Assembly (NCBI GenBank): GCA_021780755.1 | Contig: JAJXYF010000013.1 | Span: forward strand, 55,332 to 119,331 | DNA: 64,000 nt | Source of the DNA: Deltaproteobacteria bacterium | GTDB lineage: Bacteria; Desulfobacterota; Binatia; Binatales; Binataceae | Direction: 5' to 3' | Shown here: one piece after another, positions 1,744 to 10,756 of the stretch | Layout of the letters: every line of letters starts with the position of its first letter | How positions within the stretch are numbered: position 1 is the stretch's first letter | Notes under the pieces: model-generated | What the model was told of the DNA's origin: nothing | The model's input: only the letters and a program-made list of their open reading frames with translations | Database searches by the model: none | Position numbers and translations under genes: made by a program

Positions 1744-1751
1744 GAAACCTT
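1744..1751. repeat. Target site duplication, left copy, element 1
   Basis: GAAACCTT is repeated exactly at 5319-5326, just outside the opposite end of the element. An 8-bp duplication is the length known for IS1595-family insertions. Confidence 0.9.
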
Positions 1752-1787
1752 GGAGATTATGCTAATGTTGACTCCAAATCCCGAATT
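1752..1787 (+). repeat. Left terminal inverted repeat, element 1
   Basis: Begins GGAGATTATGCTAATG. Its inner 31 bp match the reverse complement of 5283-5313 perfectly; the outer 5 bp (GGAGA against GGGAG) match only partly. The pattern GGxGATTatgc...TTGAC is shared with the ends of elements 2 and 3. Confidence 0.92.
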
Positions 1788-1822
1788 TCATAAGGTTGTG
1801 CTACGTGACAGGCCGGTTAATC

Positions 1823-1894
1823 ATGGCAAAGCTGTTTATCGAAGGCGACGATGCTTCGACGGAGATGAGCCTGAAATTATGGCCAAACGTGTAA
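1823..1894 (+). other. Possible 23-aa leader ORF overlapping the HNH gene start
   Basis: An ATG at 1823 opens a 24-codon frame whose TAA at 1892-1894 overlaps the proposed HNH start at 1879. The peptide (MAKLFIEGDDASTEMSLKLW...) reads like ordinary protein. It could be a leader that couples translation, or the true N-terminus of the nuclease separated by a frameshift. Neither can be decided from this sequence. Confidence 0.25.
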
Positions 1895-3438
1895 CGCTTG
1901 ATGCGATGATCCCGCGCGAGGATTTTGCAGTCGAAGCAGAAGATCGGACCGCCGAAATTCTGTTCGGAGATTTCCCGATCAGTTATCTATTGCCGGAATC
2001 TCCGATTTTCAAATTGTTGCGTAAACCAGACTTTCAGAGAGAAACGAACCACTGGAGTCCAGAACAGGTTGCAACCTTTGTCGCGAGTTTTCTGGACAAT
2101 GAAGTAATACCCTCATTGATCCTTTGGAAGTCTAGGAGCTTTATTTTCGTAATCGATGGCGGTCATCGATTAAGCGCGCTTCGAGCTTGGGCGCTGGACG
2201 ATTATGGTGCGGGCGCTCATTCGAGCGTGTTCTTTGGCACCAACATTTCGAAACAGCAGATAGCTGTCGCTAAAAAGACCCAGAGGGCATTGGAAGATAG
2301 TGTCGGTCGTTATACAGCCCTGAGCGACCTAGTTGGCAAAAAGGTAGGCGACGAACTAAAGCAGAGTCGAGCTACGCGGCTATTTACCAGAAGTATCCCG
2401 GTACAGTGGATTCAGGGCAGTGCGGCAGTAGCTGAAACCTCGTTCTTCAAGATCAATACCCAGGGAACCCCACTTGACGAAACTGAAGAAATGCTCATCA
2501 GAAACAGAGACAAACCTATCGCGATCGCTGCAAGAGCGATAGTTCGCGGTGGGACGGGCCATCAGTACTGGTCGTCGTTTCCAGAACCGCAGAAGACGAC
2601 AATCGCAGATCTGGCGACTAGAGCCAATGAAATCCTTTTTGAACCCGAAGCGGACGTGCCCATCAAAACAATCGACGTTCCATTGGGCGGCTCTGCGTCT
2701 CCAGTAGACGCCTTGGCCCTCTTGATTGAATTTCTCACGTTAGCGGGAACTCGCGACCAGGTGCCTAAAGGCATCGCCGAATACGCCGCTGATGATAAGA
2801 ACGGTGCAGTAACAATTGGGGTTATCGAGAAATCGCTAGAAATCGTGAATCGGATAACCGGCAACGGCCCAGCAAGTTTAGGGCTCCATCCTGCGGTCTA
2901 CTTTTACAACGAGAAAGGAAAATATAGTCGATTCCTTTTCCTCGGAATGATTCGTCTGATAACAGAGCGTGTTCGTAACAACGATGATGGTTTCTTCAAA
3001 AAATTCACGTATGCGCGCGCTAAAGTCGAACGATTCTTGATTGAAAACAAATCTCTAATCGGCGTCATCTTGCAGAATTTGGGTAAATACAAACGCGTGC
3101 CCAAGATGCACGATCTCTTTGCCTTTCTCATAAAGGAAGTAACGGATGGGAAGGAATTGAAGCCAGAAGATGCCATCAAGGAATTGGGGCTCAAAGGACG
3201 AATTTTTGATATTGTAGGCTCGTCGACAAAAAAGGAATTTTCCGATGATGCCAAATCAATAATCCGAGTAAGAGAGGAGTTAAAGAAAGCCCTTATATGC
3301 CCCATTTGCCAGGGCCTTCTCGATATAAGAAAATCCGTGCAGTTCGATCACGTTGTGCGAGTTCGAGAAGGCGGACTGAGCGATCCTGAGAACGGTGCTC
3401 TAGTGCATCCATATTGTAATAGCGGAATCAAAAACTGA
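1879..3438 (+). CDS. HNH endonuclease with ParB/DUF262-like N-terminal domain (transposon cargo)
   Basis: About 519 residues from the preferred ATG at 1879. The ORF track opens at a TTG inside the terminal repeat, which is unlikely to be the real start. The N-terminal part has a short motif VIDGGHRLSALRAW, resembling the DGQQR/DGQHR signature of DUF262, DndB and ParB-like domains. The C-terminus is an HNH zinc-finger nuclease: CPIC, then FDHVVRVREGG, then HPYCN near the end. Such fusions are common in nucleic-acid-targeting defence proteins, so a role in degrading foreign DNA is an inference. It lies wholly between the inverted repeats of element 1 and is transcribed towards the other cargo genes. 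No partner subunit such as a GmrS/D mate is present. Confidence 0.75.
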   Translation: MAKRVTLDAMIPREDFAVEAEDRTAEILFGDFPISYLLPESPIFKLLRKPDFQRETNHWSPEQVATFVASFLDNEVIPSLILWKSRSFIFVIDGGHRLSALRAWALDDYGAGAHSSVFFGTNISKQQIAVAKKTQRALEDSVGRYTALSDLVGKKVGDELKQSRATRLFTRSIPVQWIQGSAAVAETSFFKINTQGTPLDETEEMLIRNRDKPIAIAARAIVRGGTGHQYWSSFPEPQKTTIADLATRANEILFEPEADVPIKTIDVPLGGSASPVDALALLIEFLTLAGTRDQVPKGIAEYAADDKNGAVTIGVIEKSLEIVNRITGNGPASLGLHPAVYFYNEKGKYSRFLFLGMIRLITERVRNNDDGFFKKFTYARAKVERFLIENKSLIGVILQNLGKYKRVPKMHDLFAFLIKEVTDGKELKPEDAIKELGLKGRIFDIVGSSTKKEFSDDAKSIIRVREELKKALICPICQGLLDIRKSVQFDHVVRVREGGLSDPENGALVHPYCNSGIKN

Positions 3439-3444
3439 ATCCCG

Positions 3445-3714
3445 TTATGGCGGCAAGTTGAAACCGAATTCTATCGGATCGATGCGAAGCTGATCGCAGA
3501 TTGACTGAATCTCGGAAGGTGCCATGAGGGCCGAATCATTCAATTCGTCCATTATGGCATCCCAAGGTAACGAGGAATCGGGATTGTCGCGCTCGAAATA
3601 GATTTTCGGGCGAGATGATTTGACGTTGACTAATTTGCCGTACCGACATCCTAGCCACAGGACATGATCGCGGAATTCCCGAAACGTGGTTTCGCGAGCG
3701 ACAGGGACGGGCAC
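3445..3714 (-). CDS. Small protein, possible HicA-like toxin
   Basis: An 89-residue protein starting from GTG at 3714, 11 bases after the stop of the upstream minus-strand gene. The pattern FREFRDHVLWLGCRYGKL ... RPKIYFERD ... ALMAPSEIQSICDQL loosely resembles short dsRBD-fold HicA proteins. The order HicB-like first, HicA-like second fits hicBA arrangements. No catalytic His is obvious, so the assignment is weak. If correct it would act as an mRNA interferase neutralised by the 106-aa neighbour. It is cargo of element 1. Confidence 0.45.
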   Translation of the reverse strand: MPVPVARETTFREFRDHVLWLGCRYGKLVNVKSSRPKIYFERDNPDSSLPWDAIMDELNDSALMAPSEIQSICDQLRIDPIEFGFNLPP

Positions 3715-3725
3715 GGCACGCGTAT

Positions 3726-4046
3726 CTACGCTGCCTGCGCGTACTGACGGGGGTGCACAGTAAGATCGCGCCCTAGTCCTTCTTCATCAAGAAAATCGAG
3801 AGGCAGAGGTTTAGCGTGTTCGTATGCTTGCCAATACCATTCGGGTGCGCGCCGCTTCCCCTCGAATGGCGAACGTCCGCGTTTGGCGTCCAATGCCAAT
3901 TGGCCCTCTACCGTGGCTTTGAGAGCGCGCCATGCAGCCTTGATGTTTTGTTCCTGAGCGGCAATGTTTGTCTCAAGCCAAAGCGCAACCCACAGATTGC
4001 CCTCTTTCAGGAAAAGGACGCTTCGTTGTCCGGGCAGATCGTCCAT
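3726..4046 (-). CDS. Small protein, possible HicB-like antitoxin
   Basis: 106 residues from an ATG with a clear AAGGAG site 7 bases upstream. The N-terminus (VLFLKEGNLWVALWLETNIA, then AAWRALKATVEGQL) resembles the HicB partial RNase-H-like fold, in which a strand, a surface segment and a helix precede the DNA-binding part. The C-terminal APEWYWQAYEHAKPLPLDF stretch recurs in HicB-type proteins as far as I recall. It is followed 11 bases later by the HicA-like ORF on the same strand, suggesting one bicistronic toxin-antitoxin unit that could stabilise the transposon. Confidence 0.5.
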   Translation of the reverse strand: MDDLPGQRSVLFLKEGNLWVALWLETNIAAQEQNIKAAWRALKATVEGQLALDAKRGRSPFEGKRRAPEWYWQAYEHAKPLPLDFLDEEGLGRDLTVHPRQYAQAA

Positions 4047-4133
4047 TTTTTGCGCTCCTTTGGATTGGGCTCACTTCATATCGTGATGCCCGTCTACCAC
4101 CATTATAGGGGATGGCGCAAGAAATGATGCAAA

Positions 4134-4280
4134 CTATTTGGAAGTCGGTTTAGCCTTAGGCTTCTTCTGACCAGCGGACGTTAGCACGTTGATTACCTTT
4201 TTTAGCTTTTCTGGATCGACGTGCTTTAGTTCTTCGCGCAACTTCTCGTCTGCTTCCCGTGTCTTTTCGGTAATAGCCAC
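4134..4280 (-). CDS. 48-aa charged small protein, unknown
   Basis: A GTG-initiated frame too short for the ORF track. It encodes a Lys/Glu-rich helix-forming peptide (VAITEKTREADEKLREELKH...) ending with a basic tail, KPKAKPTSK. It sits between the transposase and the HicB-like gene on the same strand. Element 2 carries a different 48-aa basic protein in its cargo, so tiny proteins may be a recurring feature of these elements. There is no recognised domain and start support is weak. Confidence 0.35.
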   Translation of the reverse strand: MAITEKTREADEKLREELKHVDPEKLKKVINVLTSAGQKKPKAKPTSK

Positions 4281-4312
4281 GCTTCCATTTTAGCGCGGCG
4301 AGGTTCGGCCGC

Positions 4313-5266
4313 CTAGCGATCGACAGATTGAAGCATTTTCTCGAACATCTCAGGGTCTTTCCTGTGGTTGAAGCGGAACGAGAATTCGTTCAGATAGAGC
4401 GGCAGATACGCATCCGAGACGTGGTGATATGAGCCGAGAATCCCGCGCTTGAGCAAGCTCCAGAACGATTCAATCGTGTTCGTGCCGACAGTGCCGACAA
4501 CGTACTGATGCTGCTTGTGGTTAACGGTCTTGTGCTCATAACCGTACTTCTTCAAATTCCGATAGCCCGGATGCTCATCGGTCGCGACCAGGCGGGCGCG
4601 CGTCGATACTGCCTGCTTCACGAAGTCTTCCTGAGTCCGGAAACCGAGTCCGTCAACGGCTTTGCAGATCACGTTCCCCTTGCGGGCGATCGCGCCGATG
4701 ACGGTCGCCTTCTGTGCGTGCGCGCCAGCCTTTCCAAGCCGCTTATCCCAATGTTTGTTTTCTTCGATTCCGCCAATGTAGGTTTCATCGATTTCAACTT
4801 CGCCGCCGTCGCTTCCCAAGGGCGGAATGACATCGCCCTGCATCGCGGCTCGCAAGCGCATCGCGACGTACCACGTCGTCCGATAGGCGTGCGTGGAATC
4901 TTCCCCGAAGATGACGCGATGAAGCTGTAGAGCGCTGATTCCTTTCTTCGCGGTCAGAATCAGATAGCCGATCTTAAACCACAGCTTGAGCGGGATTTTC
5001 GTATTCTCAAATATCGTGTGCGTGATGACTGAGAATCGATAGCCGCCGTTCTTCGCGCACGTCAGGACTTCGCCAGTCTGGTCGTCCATCGTCTGCGCGC
5101 CGCTCTTGCAGACCCAGTGATACGGCTTCGAGGGCATCGCCCAGACCTTGACGCTACCGCAGCGAGGGCATTTTACGACGCCATCCGGCCACCGCTGAGC
5201 CATTATCGCCTTCTTGCAGGCGTCTTCGTCGGGAAGCAGGGCATCGAATTCAGCTAACGTCTTCAT
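4313..5266 (-). CDS. IS1595 family (ISXO2-like) transposase, element 1
   Basis: 317 residues. An N-terminal zinc ribbon (CPRCGS near residue 34, second Cys pair interrupted by an insertion) precedes the ISXO2-like DDE domain. Visible catalytic landmarks are EIDETYIGG near 157, ATDEHPGY near 220 and NTIESFWSLLK near 265, giving the D-D-E plus Lys signature. It starts with ATG 17 bases inside the right terminal repeat, as expected if its promoter lies in the repeat. It should catalyse cut-and-paste movement of the whole 1752-5318 unit. About 40-50 percent similar by eye to the transposases of elements 2 and 3. Confidence 0.95.
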   Translation of the reverse strand: MKTLAEFDALLPDEDACKKAIMAQRWPDGVVKCPRCGSVKVWAMPSKPYHWVCKSGAQTMDDQTGEVLTCAKNGGYRFSVITHTIFENTKIPLKLWFKIGYLILTAKKGISALQLHRVIFGEDSTHAYRTTWYVAMRLRAAMQGDVIPPLGSDGGEVEIDETYIGGIEENKHWDKRLGKAGAHAQKATVIGAIARKGNVICKAVDGLGFRTQEDFVKQAVSTRARLVATDEHPGYRNLKKYGYEHKTVNHKQHQYVVGTVGTNTIESFWSLLKRGILGSYHHVSDAYLPLYLNEFSFRFNHRKDPEMFEKMLQSVDR

Positions 5267-5282
5267 GCCTTAAATAATAGCG

Positions 5283-5318
5283 AATTCGGGATTTGGAGTC
5301 AACATTAGCATAACTCCC
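5283..5318 (-). repeat. Right terminal inverted repeat, element 1
   Basis: Reverse complement begins GGGAGTTATGCTAATG and pairs with 1752-1787; 31 consecutive identical bases. It ends directly at the right GAAACCTT duplication. Confidence 0.92.
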
Positions 5319-5340: not shown

Positions 5341-5370
5341 GCGAAGATGTTTCACGTGAAACATCTTCGC
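5341..5370. other. parS-like centromere palindrome
   Basis: A perfect 30-bp palindrome (15-bp arms) whose centre is TGTTTCACGTGAAACA at 5348-5363, identical to the general bacterial parS consensus bound by ParB. Chromosomal parS sites normally cluster around oriC. It lies in the 67 bases of host DNA left between element 1 and element 2. No parA or parB gene is in this window, which is normal for a dispersed chromosomal site. An ordinary hairpin is the alternative, but exact agreement with all 16 consensus bases makes parS likely. Confidence 0.8.
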
Positions 5371-5385: not shown

Positions 5386-5393
5386 AAACAGTT
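5386..5393. repeat. Target site duplication AAACAGTT, first of three copies
   Basis: AAACAGTT occurs at 5386-5393, 7581-7588 and 9688-9695, exactly at the outer and shared boundaries of elements 2 and 3. Confidence 0.9.
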
Positions 5394-5418
5394 GGCGATT
5401 GTAACGGACTTGACACCA
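5394..5418 (+). repeat. Left terminal inverted repeat, element 2
   Basis: Starts GGCGATTGTAACGGACTTG. Identical over 25 bp to the reverse complement of 7556-7580. Confidence 0.92.
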
Positions 5419-5432
5419 TTGCTCGGAAGTCC

Positions 5433-6353
5433 CTATTCTGGCTGCGACAGGCCGGTATTTATGGGGTCGTTATTCTGCTTGTGGTAGTTGTACTCTTTGG
5501 GACCGAGAAAAAAGGCTATGCCGTACCTCAACTGATAACGTCTGGGCAGATAGAACATCGCAAACCCGGTCTCATAGGAGTTCTCGAATATATCCGTATA
5601 ACGAATGATTCCGTACACAGCCAAGGTCACCAGCGATTCTTGGATGCGCGCGGCGTCGCGCTCCGGCAGAAAGAGGACGATTTTCCCGTCTCTATACCGA
5701 ATAAAGCAGTCCGCTGCGTCACCTGCGCCTATAACGGTCTGCTTGATTGGCATAGGGCTGCATTCTCGAAAGTCTGGCGGCAGCGGCAACTCGTCTACCA
5801 GCCGGAGGTCCCCTATAAATTCGGTTATTATCGCGGGACCCTTCCCGCAATTTCTAATTTTCAATTCCACGAGCGTCGCGTCCAAATAGTAATCCGCCCG
5901 GTCGTTGATGTTTCGTCCCACGAATGCCTCGGCGATCAGCAACGGCCTGTCGGCTTGCAGGGCCAATTTAGCGGCTTTCGCGCTGTCGTTCGCCGCCTGC
6001 GCCGCTTTACGGGTAGCCCATGCAGCGAGTCCGCTGGCACCGAATTGAAGGAAGGCCGCGAGGACAAGGAGCCTAGTCAGTCCGGCAATTTTCTCTTCTA
6101 TCCTTGTCTGCTCATCGGGCTTGGGGCTGAGGTTGTCGCGTATTGGGGTTTGTGTCTTTGGAGTGCTGGTAGACGTCGGATGGCTGGCATTCTGCTCAGT
6201 TACTCGCTGGGTAGTCTCTGGGTGGCTCTGAACGCCGCCGCCTTCAGTTCCTGGTGGGCTTGGATTTGGCCTTGGGCTTGGTTGTGGGGTTGGGCTTCCG
6301 GCGCTTAGGAGTAAGGCCGATGCGACAAGGATCGATGAGGCCAAACGCCTCAT
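5433..6353 (-). CDS. Membrane-anchored protein of unknown function (element 2 cargo)
   Basis: 306 residues. The N-terminus has a signal-like hydrophobic stretch (LASSILVASALLLSAG) and then a Pro/Ser/Thr-rich linker. A membrane segment follows near residues 92-110 (LLVLAAFLQFGASGLAAWAT), then a short Ala/Lys helix. The rest looks like a beta-rich domain (LVELKIRNCGKGPAIITEF..., residues about 155-270). Its ATG overlaps the stop of the upstream 48-aa gene (TAATG), so translation is probably coupled. No known family was recognised. The layout of membrane helix, short coil and beta-sandwich is also seen in the cargo of element 3. Confidence 0.7.
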   Translation of the reverse strand: MRRLASSILVASALLLSAGSPTPQPSPRPNPSPPGTEGGGVQSHPETTQRVTEQNASHPTSTSTPKTQTPIRDNLSPKPDEQTRIEEKIAGLTRLLVLAAFLQFGASGLAAWATRKAAQAANDSAKAAKLALQADRPLLIAEAFVGRNINDRADYYLDATLVELKIRNCGKGPAIITEFIGDLRLVDELPLPPDFRECSPMPIKQTVIGAGDAADCFIRYRDGKIVLFLPERDAARIQESLVTLAVYGIIRYTDIFENSYETGFAMFYLPRRYQLRYGIAFFLGPKEYNYHKQNNDPINTGLSQPE

Positions 6354-6499
6354 TAGGGCTTTCTCGTCTTTCCCCGTTTAGTGCGACGGGTCTTTCGTTG
6401 CGCTGGATTCACTGGCGGAGTCTTGAGCATGCGTTTCAGTGCATCCTCAAAGGTTAGCGGATGAAGCACGATAGGCTTGTCATCTTCTTTTTTTGGCAT
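6353..6499 (-). CDS. 48-aa basic small protein (element 2 cargo)
   Basis: Absent from the ORF track as a gene because it is short. It starts with ATG after a GGTGG site and reads MPKKEDDKPIVLHPLTFEDA, then a highly basic tail rich in Arg and Lys. The stop TAA overlaps the start of the 306-aa gene by one base, a classic coupling arrangement. The LTFEDALKRMLKTPP segment followed by a basic tail resembles small proteins I recall seeing beside insertion sequences. Function unknown; a nucleic-acid-binding or regulatory role is only a guess. Confidence 0.6.
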   Translation of the reverse strand: MPKKEDDKPIVLHPLTFEDALKRMLKTPPVNPAQRKTRRTKRGKTRKP

Positions 6500-6565
6500 G
6501 TTTCCACCAATGGCGTGGTCGTGCAAAGCCGAACTCCAATTGCTTTGGTCTGGTCTGGCGATGCA

Positions 6566-6591
6566 GAAGCGCCCGCCAGCTCGGGCGCTTC
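6566..6591 (-). terminator. Hairpin at the transposase stop, element 2
   Basis: A perfect 10-bp stem (arm GAAGCGCCCG on the minus strand) with a 6-nt loop, starting inside the TGA stop of the transposase. Element 3 has the matching hairpin with one compensatory change and one G-U pair. There is no T-run, so it may be a structural or stabilising element and not a factor-independent terminator. Confidence 0.55.
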
Positions 6592-7528
6592 AGCATCCTG
6601 CTATTGCTGCCTTGAAAATGTCAGGGTTCTTACGGTTATTGAAGCGCCACGCGAACTCATTCAGGTAGAGCGGCAGATATTTCTTGGAGACGTTGTGGTA
6701 CGTCCCAATGACGCCGCGCTTCAAGAGCGACCAGAAGTTTTCGATGTTGTTCGTGTGGACGGTGCCACGAACATATTCGCCCGCTTTGTGGTCAACTGTT
6801 TGATGCGGATAGAAGTGCTTCAAGTCGCGATAGCCACCGCTCTCATCGGTCGCGATCAGGCTGACCTTATCCGCGACGGCCTTTTCGACAAACGTGCTAA
6901 GGGTATCGGCGCTCGTATCCTCGATCATCTGGCAGACGACGTTCCCTTTGCGCGCGATCGCGCCGATGACCGTCAGCTTGCCAGTGTTGGCCGCGCCGCC
7001 GCCGTGATATTTGGCGCGCACCTTCGCGTGGCGATTCTTCTGCTTGCCACCGAGAAATGTCTCGTCAACTTCAACTTCGCCCGTCAATTGGGCTTCGTCG
7101 TTGCCGAGCATCGCACGGACGCGGTGGCAGATATAGAAAGCGGTCTTGTACGCGGTTGGCCTGCCGTCTTCTTTGAGCATTCGTTGGACTTGAAGGGCGC
7201 TCATTCCCTTCTTGCTCTGGCAAATCAGGTAGATGACCTCGAACCAGATCGGCAGCGGATAGTTAGTGTTCTCGAACACCGTGCCGACGAGAGCGGAAAA
7301 GCGATAGCCGTTCTTCTTGTGGCATACCGAGACAAGGCCGGTATCCTCGTTCACGCTTTCCTTGCCGCTCTTGCAGACCCAAGTCCAATTGCGCTTCGTG
7401 ATCTTGAATACCTTGTCATTGCCGCATCGCGGACAGCGCACGCCGTCAGGCCAGCGCATCTCAACGAGCAACCCCATGCAGGCTTCTTGAGTGTTGTACT
7501 GTTCGTGAATCTGTCGAAGGCTGATCAT
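6590..7528 (-). CDS. IS1595 family (ISXO2-like) transposase, element 2
   Basis: 312 residues with an N-terminal zinc ribbon (CPRCGND near residue 35 and a second, spread Cys pair) and a full ISXO2 DDE domain: EVDETFLGGKQKNRHA near 156, ATDESGGYRDLKHF near 225, and NNIENFWSLLKRG near 265. It starts 28 bases inside the right inverted repeat. It ends in IAGC and runs straight into a hairpin. The C-terminal third is nearly identical to the element 3 transposase, so the two elements are close relatives with different cargo. Confidence 0.95.
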   Translation of the reverse strand: MISLRQIHEQYNTQEACMGLLVEMRWPDGVRCPRCGNDKVFKITKRNWTWVCKSGKESVNEDTGLVSVCHKKNGYRFSALVGTVFENTNYPLPIWFEVIYLICQSKKGMSALQVQRMLKEDGRPTAYKTAFYICHRVRAMLGNDEAQLTGEVEVDETFLGGKQKNRHAKVRAKYHGGGAANTGKLTVIGAIARKGNVVCQMIEDTSADTLSTFVEKAVADKVSLIATDESGGYRDLKHFYPHQTVDHKAGEYVRGTVHTNNIENFWSLLKRGVIGTYHNVSKKYLPLYLNEFAWRFNNRKNPDIFKAAIAGC

Positions 7529-7555
7529 GAACTGACTTTACACCCATTTCGCGCG

Positions 7556-7580
7556 TGGTGTCAAGTCCGTTACAATCGCC
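7556..7580 (-). repeat. Right terminal inverted repeat, element 2
   Basis: Perfect 25-bp inverted copy of 5394-5418. Confidence 0.92.
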
Positions 7581-7588
7581 AAACAGTT
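7581..7588. repeat. AAACAGTT shared by elements 2 and 3
   Basis: The single 8-bp copy that separates two complete elements; it serves as right duplication of element 2 and left duplication of element 3. Confidence 0.9.
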
Positions 7589-7613
7589 GGCGATTATGCC
7601 AGACTTGACTAAC
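7589..7613 (+). repeat. Left terminal inverted repeat, element 3
   Basis: GGCGATTATGCC then a 4-base segment with three mismatches, then TTGACTAAC, against the reverse complement of 9663-9687. Confidence 0.88.
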
Positions 7614-7639
7614 AACCGTTCGTGCGCTATATCTTTTAT

Positions 7640-8575
7640 ATGGACACGAAAGTCGAGGCTGGCGAACCGAAAATCACCCGACAGATGACGCTGGCGGAGT
7701 TTGATCGGATGTTTCCCGATGAAACGTCCTGCAAGTCGTACCTGATGGCACAACGCTGGCCGAAAGGCGTGCGCTGCCCGCGCTGCGGCAATGAGAAGGT
7801 TTACGCCAACAAGACGCGGCCGTTTACTTGGCAGTGCATGAAGTGCGGAGCGGCGAAGCGGACGCCTTATCGGTTCTCGGTGACGGTCGGGACGATCTTT
7901 GAGAATACGAACTATCCGCTTCTGGTCTGGTTCAAGGTTCTCTACTTGATGCTGACGAGCAAGAAAGGCATCAGCGCGCTCCAAATCCATCGGATGATCG
8001 GAAGCGGCTCGTATCGCACCGCTTGGTTCATGTGCCATCGCTTGCGCGCCGGAATGGCCGAACCTGAGTTTCGTCAACTCATGGGAATCGTTGAAGTCGA
8101 TGAAACCTATATCGGCGGCAAGCAGAAGAATCGGCACGCGGACGTGCGCGCCAAGTATCACGGTGGTGGTGCGGCCAATACGGGCAAAGCTACAGTCATC
8201 GGCGCGATCTCGCGCAAGGGCAATGTCGTTTGCAAGATAATCGAGAACGCCACCGCTGAGACGCTTAGCCACTTTGTCGAAGATACTGTTTCGGATCGCG
8301 TCAGCTTGATAGCCACCGACGAGAGCGGCGGCTATCGCGACTTGAAGCACTTCTATCAGCACAAGTCGGTTGATCATAAGGCGCGCGAGTACGTGCGCGG
8401 CGAGGTTCACACGAACAACATCGAAAACTTCTGGTCGCTCTTGAAGCGCGGCGTCATCGGCACCTACCACAACGTAAGCAAGAAATATCTGCCGCTCTAC
8501 CTGAATGAGTTCGCGTTCCGCCACAACAATCGCAAGAACTCGGACATCTTCGGGAGCGCCGTAGCAGGATGCTGA
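7640..8575 (+). CDS. IS1595 family (ISXO2-like) transposase, element 3
   Basis: 311 residues from the ATG at 7640; the track begins at a GTG six codons earlier. The zinc ribbon here is a clean pair, CPRCG and CMKCG near residues 44 and 66. DDE landmarks are EVDETYIGGKQKNRHA, ATDESGGYRDLKHF and NNIENFWSLLKRG. It lies just inside the left terminal repeat and should mobilise 7589-9687. The 3' end and the following hairpin closely match those of element 2 at nucleotide level. Confidence 0.95.
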   Translation: MDTKVEAGEPKITRQMTLAEFDRMFPDETSCKSYLMAQRWPKGVRCPRCGNEKVYANKTRPFTWQCMKCGAAKRTPYRFSVTVGTIFENTNYPLLVWFKVLYLMLTSKKGISALQIHRMIGSGSYRTAWFMCHRLRAGMAEPEFRQLMGIVEVDETYIGGKQKNRHADVRAKYHGGGAANTGKATVIGAISRKGNVVCKIIENATAETLSHFVEDTVSDRVSLIATDESGGYRDLKHFYQHKSVDHKAREYVRGEVHTNNIENFWSLLKRGVIGTYHNVSKKYLPLYLNEFAFRHNNRKNSDIFGSAVAGC

Positions 8576-8599
8576 AGCGTCCGAACTGGCGGATGCTTC
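8574..8599 (+). terminator. Hairpin at the transposase stop, element 3
   Basis: The arms GAAGCGTCCG and CGGATGCTTC pair with one G-U. Compared with element 2, one C-G pair became T-A and one G-C became G-U, so pairing is conserved although the sequence has drifted. No T-tract follows. Confidence 0.55.
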
Positions 8600-8651
8600 T
8601 GCATCATTCCAGCAAGCCCACGCAGTTGGATTTGTTTCCGCGCGCACGGCG

Positions 8652-8816
8652 TTATTGCTGAGCCTCTTGCGCGGCTTTGGCTTCTTTTGCCTTGCGCCGG
8701 AGCGCCGCGCGACGCTTCATGGCACGATAGTGCGGGTGCGTTTTCAAGTGGTATTCGGCGCACGGTCGGCAATAGAAATGTATGATTCTCTTCTTCTGCT
8801 CGCCGATTTTAGACAT
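8652..8816 (-). CDS. 54-aa basic small protein with CxxC (element 3 cargo)
   Basis: Start chosen at ATG 8816 (MSKIGEQKKRIIHFYCRPCA...), because the track start lies inside the preceding gene. The peptide has one CRPC motif, several His residues and a Lys/Arg/Ala-rich helical tail, so a small zinc-binding or nucleic-acid-binding protein is conceivable. It overlaps the 3' end of the 266-aa gene by 8 bases (ATGTCTAA), implying coupled translation. It parallels the 48-aa basic protein of element 2, but there the small gene comes first. Confidence 0.6.
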   Translation of the reverse strand: MSKIGEQKKRIIHFYCRPCAEYHLKTHPHYRAMKRRAALRRKAKEAKAAQEAQQ

Positions 8817-9609
8817 TTTCTTTTTTCTCAGTGGGTACGTCACACGACCCGCCAGCCTTTAACACCAAGCAGAATAGCTGGGGGCCGTTGCGTAAGTCGG
8901 GGTCAGCAAATACTGAACCATATAAGATCACATCCGGCGCTTCGCCGCCCATTTCTGATCCCCACATGGACGTATATACAGCAGGGGTATCCTTGGGTCC
9001 GCGCTCGTTTGTCGAATATATGTGCCATTGGGCCGCTATCCACGGCTGCACTCTAAAATCCCAATCTAACTTCCCTAAGAGAATGCGACACGTCTGCGCC
9101 TTGACGATCCTTGTTTTGGGAGAATCCGTATGCGCCCAGCGACCAAAAAGAGCACTTCGTTCGCCAGAAACCAATCCATCGATATCGAACGTGATCCAAA
9201 ACTCAGCAGCGTCACCATCGTTTGTCACTTCGACACAGGGTTCGTTTCCATAAACGATCCGTAATCTAGCTATTGGGCCACTAGGAATCTTCGCGTCGGT
9301 CGCTGCACGCAAGCTCTGCGTCCGCATTTCCCGCGTAAGTTCTTCGAGTGCTTGAGTATGCCGTCGTCGGTCAATCAATTCCGGCGAATCGATCTCAAGC
9401 TGCTTAACCTTCTGGTGCTCATCGCGCCACGCCAGATACATGGCATAAAACACAAGTACAACCGTCGCCAACTCATAGATGCGCGGCGGAACTGTTATAC
9501 CCGTCAAATCCGAGATAAGCGCCAACGCGCCTATGAGCGCACCGCCTAGCAATTCTTTTTTCCAATTTCTAAGGACGGCGCGCAGCCACACTCTAACCAT
9601 GAGACGCAC
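8809..9609 (-). CDS. Membrane-anchored protein of unknown function (element 3 cargo)
   Basis: 266 residues. Two membrane segments lie near residues 20-40 (LLGGALIGALALISDLTGI) and 45-62 (IYELATVVLVFYAMYLAW). A charged helix (residues about 65-100) follows, then a probably cytoplasmic beta-rich domain with IVYGNEPCVEVTNDGDAAEF. This repeats the plan of the element 2 cargo protein (membrane helix, coil, beta domain with a comparable V/I-x-N-x-G-x-A/G segment), although the sequences are not clearly alignable. No named family was recognised. Its stop overlaps the start of the small basic gene. Confidence 0.68.
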   Translation of the reverse strand: MRLMVRVWLRAVLRNWKKELLGGALIGALALISDLTGITVPPRIYELATVVLVFYAMYLAWRDEHQKVKQLEIDSPELIDRRRHTQALEELTREMRTQSLRAATDAKIPSGPIARLRIVYGNEPCVEVTNDGDAAEFWITFDIDGLVSGERSALFGRWAHTDSPKTRIVKAQTCRILLGKLDWDFRVQPWIAAQWHIYSTNERGPKDTPAVYTSMWGSEMGGEAPDVILYGSVFADPDLRNGPQLFCLVLKAGGSCDVPTEKKENV

Positions 9610-9662
9610 CCCCGCGTCGCGACATTCAGCCGTTCACAAAGGGTGTAACATTTGGCCACCGT

Positions 9663-9687
9663 GTTAGTCAAATACGGCATAATCGCC
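9663..9687 (-). repeat. Right terminal inverted repeat, element 3
   Basis: Matches 22 of 25 bases of the left repeat at 7589-7613. Confidence 0.88.
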
Positions 9688-9695
9688 AAACAGTT
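9688..9695. repeat. AAACAGTT, third copy
   Basis: Right boundary of element 3. The following bases complete one arm of a long palindrome that the insertions interrupted. Confidence 0.9.
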
Positions 9696-9967
9696 CACCC
9701 GAAATGGGTGAACTGTTTCACCCGTTTTGGGGAAAGATTTCATCCTTGCGCGGAGGGGCCGAAGCGTGCGTCGCGGATGGTCGTTGGGATGCGCTTCGCC
9801 CCGCCAACGAGAAGGCAAACACGGGCGGGAACGGTAGTCGCCGCGGCGGCGGGTGCTAATGGAGGGGCGAGTCGCTGATGGTTTCGGGTGAGTCAGGTGA
9901 GATTGCAGTAGAACTCCACACAAAGCATTTGGCAATTAAATATAGTCAATATCATTTAACAACTTAA
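9696..9967. other. Intergenic region with half of an interrupted palindrome
   Basis: About 270 bases without a convincing gene. Its first bases (CACCC GAAAT GGGTGAACTGTTTCAC) pair with the GTG AAACAGTT left of element 2 to restore a palindrome with 16-bp arms. The remainder is GC-rich, then abruptly AT-rich towards 9968, where the direct repeat begins. Confidence 0.55.
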
Positions 9968-10139
9968 CAGATTCATCAAAACACACCGGAGTGTCATAAA
10001 ATACATTCGCTTTTTTTGGGTGAGCCAGGTGTCGGTCTCGGGTCATAAGCGGGGATGTGCGATGGGCAAACATTATGCTCGGGTCGGCGCAATAATTGGG
10101 ATTGCGTTTCTTCTCATGTGTCTTGGCTCGGGGTCGGTG
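9968..10139 (+). repeat. 172-bp direct repeat, copy 1
   Basis: Covers the upstream region, ribosome binding site and signal-peptide codons of the Cys-rich gene. Copy 2 is at 10570-10741, with only scattered differences. Both contain the near-palindrome ACAC(A)C(C/T)GGAGTGT in the upstream part. Confidence 0.9.
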
Positions 10140-10502
10140 GGGGCCGGACAGGGCGGCCTCGGAGCGAGTTGTAAGACTGAAGATGACTGTGTGGGTTCGC
10201 TTCAGTGCCAAAGCATTGAGGGCAAAAAAGTCTGCGACTTTCGTGAAATGCCGGCTTTCGCCGCCCCGCCGCCCGAGCCCAATTTCAAACGCTGCCATGT
10301 CGATGCCGACTGCGACCCCGGCTGGACTTGCGGTGGACCGGGGGCCGTCGTGCTCCCGAGTGGAGGAGACTGCGTTCTCATGGGCCGCGACTGCTTTACC
10401 CAAGCGGACTGCCCGGCGCCGCTGGTCTGCTATTGGCCGGCAGATTCGCCACGCCACGGCGACTGCACGGATGCTCGTTTCATCCCGAAATCCCACCAGT
10501 GA
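10062..10502 (+). CDS. Secreted Cys-rich protein, unknown function
   Basis: 146 residues from the ATG at 10062, which follows a GGGGAT site and starts a good Sec signal peptide (ARVGAIIGIAFLLMCLGSGSVGA). The mature part has about twelve Cys in repeated units of the form C-x4-DC-x4-LxC (ASCKTEDDCVGSLQC, CHVDADCDPGWTCGG, CFTQADCPAPLVC), resembling disulfide-rich Dickkopf-like or EB-type modules common in deltaproteobacterial exported proteins. It is probably exported to the periplasm or cell surface, with disulfides. Its promoter region and signal sequence are duplicated downstream. No enzymatic motif is visible. Confidence 0.75.
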   Translation: MGKHYARVGAIIGIAFLLMCLGSGSVGAGQGGLGASCKTEDDCVGSLQCQSIEGKKVCDFREMPAFAAPPPEPNFKRCHVDADCDPGWTCGGPGAVVLPSGGDCVLMGRDCFTQADCPAPLVCYWPADSPRHGDCTDARFIPKSHQ

Positions 10503-10569: not shown

Positions 10570-10741
10570 CAGATTCATCAAAACACACTGGAGTGTCATA
10601 AAATATATTCGCTTTTTTGGGTGGGCCAGGTGTCGGTCTCAGGTCATAAGCGGGGGATGTGCGATGGGCAAACATTATGCTCGGGTCGGTGCAATAATTG
10701 GGATTGCGTTTCTTCTCATGTGTCTTGGCTCGGGGTCGGTA
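10570..10741 (+). repeat. 172-bp direct repeat, copy 2
   Basis: Second copy of 9968-10139, about 95 percent identical by eye. It ends abruptly at the point where the monooxygenase gene begins on the other strand. Confidence 0.9.
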
Positions 10742-10756
10742 TGGGCGGGGGGTTAG
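10664..10756 (+). pseudogene. Truncated copy of the Cys-rich gene (signal peptide only)
   Basis: The duplicated start reads MGKHYARVGAIIGIAFLLMC and stops after 30 codons (…SVWAGG), just past the signal sequence. Its TAG overlaps the stop codon of the convergent monooxygenase gene. The result is either a dead fragment or a gene for a lone exported leader peptide. It shows that a duplication event reached exactly to the neighbouring gene. Confidence 0.7.

Follow-up and report, generated by a model that had tools for sequence, protein, structure and literature searches.

The window, a stretch of 64,000 nucleotides (nt) from contig JAJXYF010000013.1 of a Deltaproteobacteria bacterium of the family Binataceae (assembly GCA_021780755.1), was found to contain three adjoining elements of the IS1595 family of insertion sequences (IS), of which elements 2 and 3 were intact and formed a tandem insertion. 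Each of these two was found to carry a transposase gene, a tiny basic gene (SmB in element 2, SmA in element 3) and a larger membrane-anchored passenger gene (cargo). The first-pass annotation had read the tiny and the large gene of each element as a coupled two-component cargo module, and this reading is weighed below against the elements' own structure and against their relatives.

Structure of elements 2 and 3

Element 2 (5394-7580, 2187 bp) was found to contain GGCGATTGTAACGGACTTGACACC inverted repeats at both ends (repeat I7), followed by element 3 (7589-9687, 2099 bp) with the inverted repeats GGCGATTATGCC...TTGACTAACA (repeat I9); the terminal inverted repeats were of 27/28 bp and began with GGCGATT. 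The 8-bp target duplication AAACAGTT was present to the left of element 2 (5386-5393), between the two elements, where it was common to both (7581-7588), and to the right of element 3 (9688-9695). The transposase of element 2, of 312 amino acids (aa) (6590-7528, minus strand), matched the Pfam domains DDE_Tnp_IS1595 (E 1.7e-42) and Zn_ribbon_IS1595 (E 3.6e-11), and that of element 3, of 317 aa (7622-8575, plus strand), matched the same domains (E 2.6e-41 and 3.2e-12). With both domains, inverted repeats starting with GG and an 8-bp target duplication, the two elements belong to the IS1595 family. Second copies of both transposase types were found on other contigs of the genome with inverted repeats of their own, as is expected of elements mobile within it, and the 8-bp duplication was seen for one of them (L011). 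The genes unrelated to transposition that lie between the inverted repeats place the elements in the tIS category.

On the minus strand, the transposase of element 2 was followed by the 48-aa, basic-tailed SmB (6353-6499), whose start lies some 90 bp beyond the stop codon of the transposase, and by the 306-aa cargo gene (5433-6353), whose start overlaps the SmB stop as TAATG. In element 3 the 266-aa cargo gene (8809-9609, minus strand) and the 54-aa, Cys-containing and basic SmA (8652-8816, minus strand; motifs C-x2-C and K-x2-P-H) point toward the transposase, so that SmA is convergent with it and ends 76-79 bp from its stop codon; the two reading frames overlap at ATGTCTAA. Gene orders and overlaps were thus present as first described. 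The 266-aa open reading frame (ORF) probably starts at the conserved ATG at 9600, giving a protein of 263 aa.

A promoter-like TTGACA-18-TAAAGT was found at 7535-7564 (minus strand), with the -35 hexamer inside the inverted repeat and reading into the element 2 transposase. An inward TTGAC was present in almost all inverted repeats, at both ends, and roughly 17 nt inward of it came an A/T-rich -10-like hexamer. A consensus scan gave two promoter-like sites at the ends of element 2, a result that was not above chance for the scan alone.

Cargo exchange between sibling copies

Transposase-domain matches were found at ten places in the genome. Two of them hold the close siblings of the tandem elements, L011 (the wide version of L002) and L012 (the wide version of L004). 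The L011 transposase was 99% identical to that of element 2 and was accompanied by a 50-aa relative of SmB, whereas the cargo of L011, a membrane protein of 372 aa, was unrelated and oppositely oriented. The L012 transposase was 98% identical to that of element 3 and was accompanied by a small protein 81% identical to SmA and by a different 302-aa membrane protein, only 30% identical to the element 3 cargo. The cargo had therefore been replaced, with the transposase, the ends and the small gene type retained.

The boundaries of the replacement were sharp. Between element 3 and L012, homology covered the inverted repeat and the leader up to the cargo ATGG and resumed from the SmA ATGTC; the right-end leader kept in this way (9597-9687, minus strand) contains the inverted repeat, the promoter and the cargo start codon, and homology stops just after the ATGG. 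Between element 2 and L011, homology ran through SmB and about 13 nt past the overlap, and L011 was found to keep the first codons of the lost cargo. Transposase identity was patchy along both sibling pairs, at 78-98% per 60-base step between element 3 and L012, which looks like gene conversion between copies.

The tiny genes

The ratio of nonsynonymous to synonymous substitution (dN/dS) was 0.08 for SmA between element 3 and L012, 0.10 for SmB between element 2 and L011 and 0.14 for SmA between element 3 and L033, followed by values of 0.08-0.39 across other SmA pairs; pairwise values for the transposases were 0.02-0.03. The small genes of the window are under purifying selection. SmA was found to contain invariant Cys, His and Pro residues, and the basic tail of the small families exceeded that of background ORFs (Mann-Whitney P = 6e-24), so that the layout is, as had been proposed, more than a product of chance.

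About 70 IS1595 elements of the bacterial family and some outgroups were annotated. A basic-tailed gene of 42-62 aa was found close behind the transposase in 37 of the 41 main-clade elements, and a small basic gene was present in 17 of 29 more distant elements, at the far end in three of the 17. The small genes behind transposases fell into seven profile families. SmC, SmD, SmE, SmF and SmH were partly related to one another; descent of SmA and SmB from one ancestor was rejected (hhalign probability below 1%). The median distance after the transposase stop codon was 32 nt for SmC and 81.5 nt for SmA, and in intact elements the SmA gene was found 64-89 bp from the transposase end, in co-directional or convergent orientation. 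Of 57 related genomes, 9 had an SmA homologue, and further homologues came from contigs of other Deltaproteobacteria metagenome-assembled genomes (MAGs) and from Terriglobia and Acidobacteria MAGs; solved structures searched by sequence and by fold contained no relative of SmA.

The small family was found to track the transposase lineage: on the transposase tree it changed 6 times, the membrane or soluble nature of the cargo 2 times and the cargo class 12 times among 21 rows. SmA was found with cargo of classes I, II and III, and SmB with class I, class II and one further membrane protein. Class I cargo occurred with SmA in L038, L041 and L126 and with SmB in element 2, L070 and L073. Small basic genes also accompanied soluble cargo, namely restriction-like and antitoxin-like proteins.

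The border between SmB and the cargo

In many SmB elements (L068, L070, L073, L191, L194 and others) the class I gene was found to begin inside SmB, with an overlap of about 115 nt, and its signal peptide is therefore overprinted on the 3' half of SmB. In element 2 a second, SmB-like stretch, LIDPCRIGLTPKRRKPNPTT, was found inside the start of the cargo gene (6253-6352, minus strand), just past the intact SmB and in a frame different from that of the cargo; its translation matched the SmB profile at E 3e-3. From this remnant, the element 2 cargo may descend from an overprinted ancestor that was joined behind another SmB, which would make the border a recombination junction.

In L068, the start of a hypF-like gene was found on either side of the SmB and cargo unit (5680-5767 and 6932-7019). 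The repeat resembles a flank duplication and could be an assembly artefact.

The membrane cargo proteins

The 306-aa protein (class I) and the 266-aa protein (class III) gave no sequence relationship on comparison, as the first-pass annotation had stated. The same source had given both a membrane helix, a short coil and a beta domain; helix and coil were modelled in both, but the beta domain appeared in the 306-aa protein only. Its AlphaFold2 model was fair and comprised a signal-like helix, a region of disorder, a single long helix for membrane and coil and a C-terminal beta-rich domain, at a mean predicted local distance difference test (pLDDT) score of 70.5, with domain blocks mostly at 76-93. 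The model of the 266-aa protein was poor (mean pLDDT 48.9); a pair of membrane helices at the N-terminus and a coil were modelled with moderate confidence, and the C-terminal beta region was not resolved.

The beta-rich domain of the 306-aa protein is predicted to be ApaG/immunoglobulin-like. For class I, the search of solved structures gave only weak beta-sandwich likenesses (ApaG-like, E 2e-3) and a pair of viral proteins that are themselves uncharacterised (E 2e-5 and 6e-5), which is insufficient to assign a function. The 306-aa protein matched no family, and neither it nor the 266-aa protein matched PADLOC at E 0.1. No toxin or antitoxin family was matched: neither small and large pair gave a match to any Pfam family, the 306-aa protein gave none in NCBIfam, PADLOC or PHROGs, and the 266-aa protein gave none in PADLOC. 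Solved structures searched by sequence and by fold contained no relative of the 266-aa protein, and viral contigs and plasmids contained none of the 306-aa protein. A distant class I relative had weak matches solely to Bradyrhizobium plasmid proteins, with no phage match.

Class I reading frames were intact in most distant copies, with the residues N168, G170 and Y252 conserved, and broken copies were found in L039 (frameshifted) and L040 (fragmented). On the strand opposite the 306-aa gene, a long ORF that encodes membrane-like helices was also present in several relatives; it was rejected as a gene because its frame is codon-aligned antisense and conservation was limited to the sense frame, with 25 of 66 pairs over 40 bits in the sense frame against 2 pairs in the antisense frame. 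A subterminal motif, GACAGGCCGG, was found near the right end (5438-5455) and was common to class I elements and transposase-less copies; in other loci it lies downstream of the class I cargo.

Cargo of sister elements

The cargo of sister elements was found to include DUF3800 (six cases), SocA/Panacea antitoxin (three), GmrSD (two) and PIN_10 with DUF433 (two), followed by Eco29kI, RelA/SpoT, P63C, proteases and others. In PADLOC, full-length matches to the candidate defence families HEC-06 (3.7e-163) and PDC-S33 (RelA/SpoT, 2.5e-119) were obtained. The sister cargo is a defence and toxin-antitoxin repertoire.

Neighbouring features

Element 1 (1757-5313) was found to contain 31-bp perfect inverted repeats, an IS1595 transposase and an SmC small gene (4134-4280). 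Its cargo is a 562-aa protein with GmrSD_N and HNH domains (1750-3438), whose ORF starts inside the inverted repeat and which gave a weak PADLOC match to NsnA. Intergenic palindromes were present at both outer flanks of the tandem elements, at 5341-5370 (GCGAAGATGTTTCACGTGAAACATCTTCGC) and 9693-9713 (GTTCACCCGAAATGGGTGAAC), and similar palindromes were found beside the L011, L012, L215 and L216 copies, which suggests a target preference. A near-identical direct repeat of 97 bp (10051-10147 and 10653-10749) corresponds to the start of a gene for a short Cys-rich secreted protein and to a truncated copy of the same gene.

Interpretation

The most likely explanation is a build of three modules, in which the transposase is joined by a tiny basic accessory gene specific to its lineage and by a passenger that can be exchanged and is driven from promoters within the terminal repeats. 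The first module is the DDE transposase between short inverted repeats, followed by the tiny basic-tailed gene as a second module, fixed right behind the transposase and tracking its lineage, which would most likely act as an accessory or regulator of the element. The third is a single exchangeable passenger, which would be expressed from an inward promoter with its -35 hexamer in the inverted repeat or by read-through of the transposase operon. Passengers are replaced at sharp joints. On one side the joint is the cargo start codon beside the kept leader, and on the other it is the border of the tiny gene or the 3' flank of the transposase; the overlaps would therefore be cassette junctions, sometimes extended to long overprints, and not the mark of a specific protein pair. 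Within this transposase clade the passenger is nearly always a membrane-anchored protein, and its soluble domain varies. Sister elements carry restriction, toxin-antitoxin and effector-like genes, and by analogy the membrane passengers of the window are probably conflict or defence genes, acting against phages or other mobile elements.

Several observations weigh against this explanation. Between siblings, dS was 1.4-1.5 for the small genes versus 0.13-0.38 for the transposases, so transposase and small gene have at times undergone exchange or conversion independently of each other; in some cases the cargo may bring its small gene along, or conversion may have homogenised the transposase. Membrane cargo was found in 20 of 20 scored SmA/SmB elements versus 0 of 14 SmC/SmH elements (P = 7e-10), a pattern that a small gene indifferent to its cargo would not be expected to give unless through shared phylogeny. 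The cargo labels behind this figure are manual assignments based on hydropathy and ORF maps, and the association comprises only two independent evolutionary contrasts, so a functional link is not separable from common descent and the association is confounded by phylogeny. SmB and class I cargo were also found together in several loci where no transposase was seen, some of which retain one inverted repeat or a transposase end. Finally, the membrane cargoes tested matched no defence family.

Among the transposase-less loci, L194 (1332-2397) was found to contain a left inverted repeat about 126 bp ahead of SmB, with the transposase absent between them; it is probably a non-autonomous derivative, with SmB and the class I cargo as its only genes.

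A wider form of the modular explanation is tentatively put forward as a possibility. The large IS1595 clade would be a miniature cargo-exchange platform with three parts: the transposase, the tiny basic accessory proteins SmA to SmH as a lineage-specific class not described before, and a slot for one gene between the promoter-bearing end and the tiny gene, through which conflict genes would pass. Among these conflict genes, those for the membrane proteins would form a class that is likewise undescribed, and SmA and SmB could be adapted to membrane cargo.

The functional two-component module, in which SmA or SmB and the membrane protein would act, for example, as sensor and regulator or as effector and antidote at a ratio fixed by translational coupling, is considered rather unlikely. 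It draws on the 20 of 20 association, on the recurrence of overlaps, both those of 4-8 nt (element 3, L038, L126 and L139) and those of about 115 nt, and on the persistence of SmB with class I in the loci where no transposase was seen. Against it, the same small families were found with three or more cargo classes unrelated to each other, one cargo class was found with either of two unrelated small families, the cargo lay in the opposite orientation in L011 and L153, and the association comprises only the two contrasts noted above. Membrane cargo also occurred with no small gene in L143, L147 and L150; for class I, no small gene was present within 1.5 kb at 21 of 37 loci, which is the occurrence of membrane proteins alone in most relatives that had been named in advance as counting against the module. 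In L076 (the same place as L183) the N-terminus of SmB was degenerate and the class I frame open, and in the siblings the small gene type was kept as the cargo was replaced, in place of a joint exchange of the two. What stands of the original proposal is a layout that recurs and is selected; the specific pair is not supported, given the swap, the unrelated pairings and the small basic genes that accompany transposases regardless of the type of cargo. With the tiny gene as part of the jumping machinery and the membrane gene swapped, a dedicated two-part system of small and large gene is therefore mostly not supported.

A reading of the membrane passengers as neutral hitchhikers, picked up by chance and bound to decay before long, is very unlikely: cargo did differ between nearly identical transposases and broken class I copies do exist in L039 and L040, but most distant class I frames were intact with conserved residues, conservation was confined to the sense frame, and intact copies remained after loss of the transposase. 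Very unlikely as well are non-working leader or spacer ORFs that set the translation of neighbouring genes. The tiny genes do lie at a fixed distance behind the transposase and often overlap the cargo, but they are under purifying selection at the amino-acid level (dN/dS about 0.1), SmA has invariant Cys, His and Pro residues, and the small gene of the element 3 type, convergent and downstream of the cargo, cannot serve as a leader.

Relation to known systems and significance

Passenger genes in IS elements form a named category, for which Siguier, Gagnevin and Chandler 2009 is cited with respect to tIS (PMC7986276), and IS1595 members are described by a DDE transposase with an N-terminal zinc ribbon, short inverted repeats and an 8-bp duplication, usually with a single transposase gene (PMC8101967). 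The elements of the window agree with the family and with tIS in domains, repeats, duplication and the presence of passenger genes. They differ from that description of IS1595 in that nearly every element of the large clade carries a lineage-specific tiny basic gene and a swapped passenger with defined junctions. Among the open-access papers found by searches for IS1595 with passenger genes or cargo, none described these tiny genes in its title or abstract. Tn7-like transposons (Benler et al. 2021, PMC8649781) are alike in that cargo is decoupled from the core, with unrelated cargo on related cores, and in their enrichment in defence and toxin-antitoxin genes. Their median sizes are 14-29 kb with a multi-gene core, whereas the elements here are of 2-3 kb with one transposase and usually one passenger, and the transposases of the two groups showed no relationship. 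Earlier work has described both IS elements with passenger genes and closely related transposons that carry unrelated cargo (PMC7986276, PMC8649781). The membrane effectors of Pycsar and CBASS (PycTM, 2TM) are likewise small membrane-anchored proteins, and two elements, L170 and L176, carry PycTM-like cargo by weak PADLOC matches, but the cargoes of the window matched no such model and no cyclase gene was adjacent.

If the modular explanation is right, some of the smallest transposable elements would be delivery cartridges with a constant transposase and tiny gene, in which fixed joints allow the payload to be swapped and a promoter is supplied ready-made. The pairing of an IS1595 transposase with a tiny basic gene would then provide a simple search handle for conflict genes that are still uncharacterised, and the role of the small accessory protein in transposition could be put to a direct test.

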